From: Elusimicrobiota bacterium
GTDB lineage: Bacteria; Elusimicrobiota; Elusimicrobia; F11
Reading direction: 5' to 3'
Length of the DNA: 36,266 nucleotides
Assembly: GCA_003140895.1 (NCBI GenBank)
Contig: PLLH01000014.1
Location: 18,646 to 54,911, forward strand
In this document: in pieces, positions 9,191 through 36,266 of the stretch
How positions within the stretch are numbered: the first letter of the stretch is position 1
Layout: each line of letters opens with the position of its first letter
Program-made: the position numbers and the translations under genes
The notes under the pieces: model-generated
What the model was told of the DNA's origin: nothing
Database searches by the model: none
The model's input: the letters and a program-made list of their open reading frames with translations, nothing else

Positions 9191-9228
9191 AAAGAAACGG
9201 CGCCCGTCCGCCGCAGCGGACGGGCGCC
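9191..9228 (-). terminator. Intrinsic terminator between DUF3015 and DUF4105 genes
   Basis: A perfect 13-bp GC-rich stem (9199-9211 with 9216-9228, GGCGCCCGTCCGC and its complement) has a 4-base loop. Read on the minus strand it is followed by GTTTCTTTT. This is a textbook rho-independent terminator 21 bases after the DUF3015 stop. The T tract ends about 3 bases before the DUF4105 start codon. Confidence 0.85.
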
Positions 9229-9249
9229 GTCTGTTTGAATCTGTATAAG

Positions 9250-34989: not shown

Positions 34990-36266
34990 TTGAATTCACT
35001 CCCTCTTTTCACCGCCACTCTCTCCGGTCTCCTCTTCGCCGCCGCATTCCCGTCCTTTAATATTTCATATCTCGCCTGGGTCAGCCTGGTTCCGCTTCTT
35101 CTTCTCACCAAATCCGAGAAGCGCTTCAACCCGTTGACGCTGGGCCTGCTCTCCGGATTCGTCGCGAACCTGGTTCTTTTCTCTTGGCTGCTGACCACAT
35201 TCCGCGCCGCGGGAATCGCGCTTCCCATTTCTCTTTTTTGCTGGATGGCGCTTTCCGCCATCCTCGCTCTCTACTTTGGACTCTTCACGAGTTTCTACGC
35301 TCAATGCCCCGCGTCTTGGATGAAACCGTGGCTGGCCGGCGCCATGTGGGTGGCCCTGGAACATATCCGAAGCTATCTCCTCTCCGGTTTTCCCTGGGCG
35401 CTTCTCGGACACACGCAGGCCTATAACCCGCTTCTTCGGCAAACGGCGGCGGTGACGGGCGTGGCCGGAATTTCCTTTCTCCTCGTCGTATCCAACTCAA
35501 CCATCACAGAGTTGTGGAGTTGGCTGCGAGAAAAACCGTTCAACAGACACCGGGAAACGTCGCTGATTTTGAGCAGCACCTTTTTCCTCGTTCTCCTTCT
35601 TGGAGCGGGTCTTTTTGGGTGGGGGCGGCTTCACAGGTGGGAGAAACATCCCAAAACTTTCTTTACCGTCGCTCTCCTTCAGGGAAATATCGATCAATAC
35701 AAAAAGTGGGACGCCGTGTATGAAGCGGACATCCGCGCCACGTATTCTGATTTGGCTTTAAAAGCCGCGCTCGCCAAACCGGATTTGATTGTCTGGCCGG
35801 AATCGGCGGTCCCCGGCTGGATTCCAAACGACCGCGCCTACACGGAATGGCTGCAAACCCTCGTCAAGAAAACGGGAACCCCAAATTTCGTGGGAGCCGT
35901 CTCCTCCATCGGCCGGCACGATTTCAACTCGGCTTTTCTCATCGGCGCTGATGGAACCATCTTTAATCATTACGACAAAATCCACCTGGTGCCGTTCGGT
36001 GAATTCAATCCGTTCGGAAACTTCCTGAATAAGATCATTCCGTATCTCGGGCAACTCGGAACTTTTTCCGCCGGTAAAGGGCCATCTCTCTTTTACGTTG
36101 AAAGAGGGGCAGAGGCGTTCGGACGTAGTGACTTTGGGAGTCCGCCACGGCGGGCGAACAGGGAACGGAGTCCGAATGCCTCTGCCCCTCTTGCTGGTGC
36201 TGACGGCGGGCAGGAAGGGTCTGATTCCGCTCCATCTCTGTTGAGTCGCTCCACCAGACCCTCCCT
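34990..36266 (+). CDS. lnt: Apolipoprotein N-acyltransferase, 3' end outside window, with in-frame palindromic insertion
   Basis: The frame from TTG 34990 is open to the end of the window (425 codons). It shows an N-terminal block of membrane helices, then a nitrilase-like domain with FTVALLQGNIDQYKKWD, LIVWPESAVPG (catalytic E271) and FNHYDKIHLVPFGEFNPFG (catalytic K330), matching Lnt, which adds the third acyl chain to lipoproteins. The catalytic Cys segment (ICYE) has not been reached. From about residue 371 the sequence turns into low-complexity Ser/Pro/Arg/Gly residues coded by two large palindromes, an apparent insertion of at least 55 residues. TTG is chosen because no ATG precedes the first membrane helix; no ribosome-binding site is clear. 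Confidence 0.88.
   Translation, partial: MNSLPLFTATLSGLLFAAAFPSFNISYLAWVSLVPLLLLTKSEKRFNPLTLGLLSGFVANLVLFSWLLTTFRAAGIALPISLFCWMALSAILALYFGLFTSFYAQCPASWMKPWLAGAMWVALEHIRSYLLSGFPWALLGHTQAYNPLLRQTAAVTGVAGISFLLVVSNSTITELWSWLREKPFNRHRETSLILSSTFFLVLLLGAGLFGWGRLHRWEKHPKTFFTVALLQGNIDQYKKWDAVYEADIRATYSDLALKAALAKPDLIVWPESAVPGWIPNDRAYTEWLQTLVKKTGTPNFVGAVSSIGRHDFNSAFLIGADGTIFNHYDKIHLVPFGEFNPFGNFLNKIIPYLGQLGTFSAGKGPSLFYVERGAEAFGRSDFGSPPRRANRERSPNASAPLAGADGGQEGSDSAPSLLSRSTRPS
36102..36192. repeat. Large imperfect palindrome inside lnt (element 1)
   Basis: The 22-base arm 36102-36123 (begins AAGAGGGGCAGAGGC) and the arm 36171-36192 (ends GCCTCTGCCCCTCTT) are complementary at 21 of 22 positions around a 47-base loop. 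The loop holds a smaller palindrome, CCGCCACGGCGG. GGAGTCCG occurs in the loop and again at the start of the right arm. The reading frame stays open throughout. Confidence 0.9.
36212..36266. repeat. Second palindrome inside lnt (element 2, may continue past the window)
   Basis: AGGAAGGGTCTG (36212-36223) and CAGACCCTCCCT (36255-36266) match as an inverted repeat at 11 of 12 positions around a 31-base loop. The right arm ends exactly at the window edge, so the true length is unknown. It begins 20 bases after element 1. Confidence 0.75.

Follow-up and report, generated by a model that had tools for sequence, protein, structure and literature searches.

In most dispersed bacterial palindromes the stems are the repeated part. 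Rickettsia palindromic elements (RPEs), of 105-146 bp, occur between genes and also as in-frame fusions within conserved protein genes (PMC2229807), and their arms reportedly lose identity with time (PMC6649704). The mitochondrial repetitive and double-hairpin elements (RHE and DHE) are mobile-looking hairpins, often two in tandem and sometimes in genes (PMC2800124). Stems attributed to template switching (quasipalindromes) and the coding palindromes of Nematomorpha mitochondria have long perfect arms with matched changes and are partly coding (PMC8794818, PMC6649704).

The hairpins described here, of two types, A and B, come from an Elusimicrobiota genome. Like RPEs and Wolbachia palindromic elements, they are small hairpin repeats, similar in size, found between genes and in frame within them: a small palindrome is repeated in one genome (14 hairpins at 11 loci) and, in ispE, lies in frame in a conserved gene. 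They differ from RPEs, compared here by description only, in lineage and in having a conserved core with free arms whose complementarity is kept. With the REP/REPIN/BIME sequences and their RAYT (TnpAREP) they have in common dispersed hairpins, strand-specific features and inverted pairs, but there is no Y1 gene and no GTAG guide, the arms are not repeated and the hairpins are larger. In sponge RHEs the stems are conserved and the loops differ, the reverse of what we observed, and RHE and DHE are organellar, not bacterial. Matched arm changes are also seen in the template-switch and Nematomorpha palindromes, for which, in contrast, no repeated core common to different loci is described. In behaviour the A/B hairpins are comparable to RPEs and REPs; membership in neither is established.

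The window, that is, the whole stretch of 36,266 nt that was analysed, covers positions 18646-54911 of a contig (C75 of the genome G000) 56744 nt long. It ends within the first part of lnt (34990..36266, + strand), which encodes LNT_N and the start of the CN_hydrolase domain, and a scaffold gap follows directly. The two adjacent imperfect palindromes that a preliminary description had placed at this end of lnt are real. Hairpin A (36102..36192, motif strand +) has 23-nt arms (36102-36124 and 36170-36192) with one G-T mismatch around a 45-nt middle, the core (36125..36169, + strand), which consists of GTAGTGAC (36125-36132), a tip hairpin GTCCGCCACGGCGGGC (36140-36155) and GGAACGGA (36162-36169). 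After a spacer of 19 nt (36193..36211) comes hairpin B (36212..36266, motif strand -), with 14-nt arms (36212-36225 and 36253-36266) that contain two G-T mismatches, and an outer end cut by the gap. Its 27-nt middle, the core (36226..36252, - strand), reads TCCGCTCCATCTCTGTTGAGTCGCTCC on the + strand, which is GGAGCGACTCAACAGAGATGGAGCGGA on the motif strand. When the RNA was folded, as had been proposed, a segment of 177 nt containing both hairpins was far more stable than its shuffles (z -5.7). The first reading had missed that A and B are related to each other in inverted orientation, with a conserved core and covarying arms. Elsewhere in the window, at 9197-9230, perfectly paired arms of 15 bp enclose a loop of 4 nt (ACGGCGCCCGTCCGC cgca GCGGACGGGCGCCGT); this hairpin lies outside the A/B family.

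The lnt segment is not unique, and the earlier expectation that the palindrome would recur elsewhere in the genome, in and outside genes, was borne out. A search of the same genome returned a second full A-B copy on contig C17, where lplA starts, with 75% identity over 164 nt and a dissimilar spacer, and partial copies elsewhere. Between the A hairpins of lnt and C17 the left arm differs at seven positions, all seven matched on the other arm, and the core differs at 10 of 45. Both tips contain a GC-rich hairpin. The centre CCGCCGCGGCGG of a set of perfect palindromes with varied arms (GTCAAGTC, CATTGCGAGCTT and others; L225:2763-2808, L218:14828-14873, L223:6864-6901) also occurs within these two tips, as if hairpins were nested.

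Covariance models were built from B copies, from three A copies, and from both combined. Run over the whole 2.5-Mb genome and supplemented by pattern searches, they gave 14 family hairpins, seven A and seven B, at 11 loci. Since the model trained on A copies alone recovered B copies on the corresponding strand, A and B belong to one family. The combined model also recovered copies on which it had not been trained, among them the two in another genus. On the motif strand the layout is [G-rich arm]-GNAGYGAC-tip-GGARCGGA-[C-rich arm], with arms of 14-23 nt, tips of 5 to about 60 nt and a total element length of about 61-121 bp. What is conserved is thus the purine-rich core that encloses a variable tip, rather than the palindrome; the arms differ in every copy yet pair. 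The core probably forms non-canonical internal loops flanking a short G-Y/R-C stem. Inverted A/B pairs stand head to head at lnt and C17 and back to back on contig C85; the other eight loci have single hairpins. At C85 (L129:4930-5140) an extra imperfect stem (CTGACGGGAA / TTCCCGTTAG) lies outside the arms of hairpin A, so that some elements may exceed their main arms.

Pairing within the arms was checked by hand on the motif strand for 15 hairpins, 14 from this genome and one from another genus of the same family (G001). Among 302 arm pairs, 287 were Watson-Crick, 14 G-T and one A-C, with no other combination. In an alignment of nine copies, 97.2% of the paired cells were standard, 20 of 21 arm pairs had changes in both arms, and covariation scored 0.822, against 0.268 for shuffled alignments and 0.11-0.16 for slid structures; this alignment was fitted to the palindrome model, whereas the complementarity within each copy is direct. 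A transition within a palindrome appears as G-T when one strand is read and as A-C when the other is read, so that the ratio of 14 to 1 (p 0.001; 0.006 when shared events enter only once) suggests that it is the motif strand on which pairing is kept. This preference rests on 15 mismatches, and strand-biased mutation could mimic it. Among B copies the cores are 92% identical and the outer arms 49%; the latter retain a weak positional similarity, and the 5' arm is G-rich in 15 of 15 copies. Why old copies should have perfect arms, if they are inert after insertion, is not obvious.

Palindromes were surveyed in 763 kb, about 30% of the genome. Eight of the nine strongest belong to the A/B family, and a dinucleotide-matched control of 763 kb contained none of such strength. 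This control, together with the fold z of -5.7, led us to reject chance or base composition as the source. Insertion into the loops of pre-existing palindromes was also rejected, as there were almost no empty strong palindromes in the sampled 30%, and so was a hairpin adaptor or library artefact, as the copies have differing cores and short arms. By a crude count ORFs of at least 150 aa take up about 91% of the sampled sequence, and the copies are therefore concentrated between genes: at the lplA start (C17), between moxR and DUF58 (C8) and between dsbD and rmuC (C115), upstream of asnB (C92), and on C85, C87 and C25. Three lie in uninterrupted ORFs, namely ispE (C92:61606-61675), a gene adjoining lexA (C101) and, near its start, a gene overlapping proS (C83). 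Relative to the host genes the motif strand varies between sense and antisense, an arrangement that speaks against a cis-RNA signal.

The tolerance of such elements in frame inside genes, proposed earlier from lnt, is seen cleanly in ispE and also in the other two ORFs. The ispE ORF is complete and keeps its C-terminal GHMP motif, and both flanks of the element align with solved IspE enzymes. Where this genome has LDEARGQRGFGRRDSGSVERRPNPLWPRKYRNDFE, G001 has LDEYRKKKSRPKPVSAEKYFNSFE and a further genus of the family (G002) LDEERKKNRPRPVIKKGPRNDFE. The protein is 11-12 residues (33-36 nt) longer than same-family orthologues and the hairpin spans 73 nt, so that part of the hairpin replaces native length, perhaps via its 3' arm. 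In more distant relatives the segment is length-variable, and it therefore gives only a hint on the origin of the arms. The C101 gene was discarded as a test of arm origin because the region is length-variable in relatives; its G002 homologue carries an in-frame REPIN-like palindrome (L223:4963-5066). In G002 there is also a palindrome with arms of 123 bp around a 2-nt loop (L219:9476-9723), and contig C82 has ispE twice in opposite orientation (40096+ and 58237-); this has the look of an inverted duplication or of an artefact of assembly at a hairpin.

At lnt, the frame is open across both palindromes up to the window end, as had been described. The contig does continue past 36266, and after 17 adjoining N lnt restarts at NLTNDGWYLKTAAPEQ and extends to its stop codon (second part, C75 about 54930-55260). 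The protein behind the gap starts NLTNDGWY..., in a different frame if the count of 17 N is taken literally. Orthologues have about 25 codons ahead of NLTNDGW, among them those for the catalytic-Cys motif ICYE, and this segment, to which the frame had been expected to lead, is absent from the assembly. Of the 27 N runs inspected in this assembly, 25 consist of 2 N, and at some of them the ends are duplicated (CCAAATGGGG stands on either side of the gap at L127:387). Since gap lengths are nominal and the ICYE segment is unassembled, the 17 N of this scaffold gap fix neither the length nor the frame of the insert, and the in-frame insertion in lnt is putative. The aligned Lnt orthologues are without the palindromic segment, as predicted, although their distance from the catalytic Lys to the Cys is about 50 residues and not the 20-30 that had been given as normal. 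We also considered that the left arm of A might be native lnt sequence, for which the orthologues give no clear support, the arm being unlike native sequence. We infer that Lnt would tolerate the insertion. At this locus only, a chimeric contig end, with lnt free of such an insert, would be in keeping with a contig that ends within a repeat and a gap whose 17 N could not hold the native segment that is missing; we regard it as quite improbable, given that the lnt copy duplicates no other locus (the arms of A are unique, and the core of B is one base off that of C17) and that the scaffold joins both halves of lnt.

The account we favour, and think rather likely to be correct, is that A and B form one small dispersed hairpin family, its core fixed and its arms free but compensated, which would have spread as a folded single strand. 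Its dispersal suggests mobility; against this, neither an empty site nor a target duplication was seen, the same-family genera compared being too distant outside genes, and neither Y1 nor reverse transcriptase matches supplied a candidate enzyme in this genome. The element, DNA or RNA, would be recognised as a single-stranded hairpin through its core, and the arms would then need complementarity only. Selection for the hairpin would keep the arms paired, with replication template switching, which copies one arm onto the other, as a probable helper; a head-to-head A-B pair, like that at the lplA start, would have landed in lnt. A family of this kind has free stem sequences and retains only their pairing, as structured RNAs do, although its members occupy unrelated places on either strand, some of them inside genes. 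It offers a natural test case for the upkeep of long perfect hairpins, by single-strand selection versus template switching, and for the absorption of inserted hairpins by proteins outside Rickettsia and Wolbachia. That it is a new class of mobile hairpin, recognised by its purine internal loops, tolerated in frame by essential genes and mobilised by an enzyme other than a Y1 transposase or a reverse transcriptase, is a speculative extension that we hold to be unlikely. Reverse transcriptase (PF00078) had no match in this genome.

The divergence of the outer arms around the nearly identical B cores could also mean that the element is the core only and that the arms were made from host DNA at insertion, by inverted flank copying or by template switching that overwrote the flank. 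In ispE the 3' arm aligns with native residues (RPNPLWPRKY versus RPKPVSAEKY), and the net gain of 33-36 nt against a 73-nt hairpin fits with this; however, the segment is length-variable in relatives, the left arm in lnt is unlike native sequence, the A arms of lnt and C17 are clearly homologous with matched changes, and the uniformly G-rich 5' arms and weak positional similarity of the outer arms speak against it as well, which makes this origin improbable. A conserved unpaired core, covarying stems and G-T pairs tolerated on one strand would equally suit structured RNAs that function at fixed places as regulators, terminators or stabilisers. We consider this a little less probable still, as the motif strand is both sense and antisense to host genes, copies lie within ORFs, no consistent T run follows the stem and no locus is in common with the other-genus copies; in Rfam there was no match at the gathering score, and relaxed matches were to generic long-hairpin microRNA models, far below cutoff. 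Mobilisation as REP/REPIN-type elements by a RAYT (Y1) transposase would account for dispersed palindromes, inverted A-B pairs and a strand-specific hairpin, and Y1 genes (PF01797) are matched in three other genera of the family (G001-G003). Against it, PF01797 has no match in this 99.8% complete genome, an invariant GTAG before the hairpin is lacking (only lnt A has GTAG at that position), and REP stems are repeats whereas these stems differ in every copy, so that it deserves very little weight.

Returning to the favoured dispersed family, its distribution was explored with the combined model in this genome and 96 other genomes of the class, with 44 candidates scored per genome, so that weak copies elsewhere can be missed. 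Matches were obtained in this genome (12), in G001 (two) and, at one weak place, in a genome of another family of the class (G016). The last (E 0.002; C53:6702-6846, L184) has perfect G-rich/C-rich arms around GCAGTGAG ... AACGAA and, judged from its sequence, may be a distant family member. The copies in this genome and those in G001 had no locus in common. The B-core pattern matched only twice in 84,980 species, by chance and without palindromes, and had no matches in viral contigs, phages or plasmids; for the related repeats GTCATTGCGAG and GGAGCGAAGCGAC, sought in the literature by their sequence words, nothing of relevance turned up. G002 (L209-L224) and G003 (L225-L227) contain dense REPIN-like palindromes of the CGTCATTCCCGCGAAAGCGGGAATCCA kind, different from the A/B hairpins, along with Y1 transposase genes, and 37 strong palindromes were counted in 295 kb of G002.
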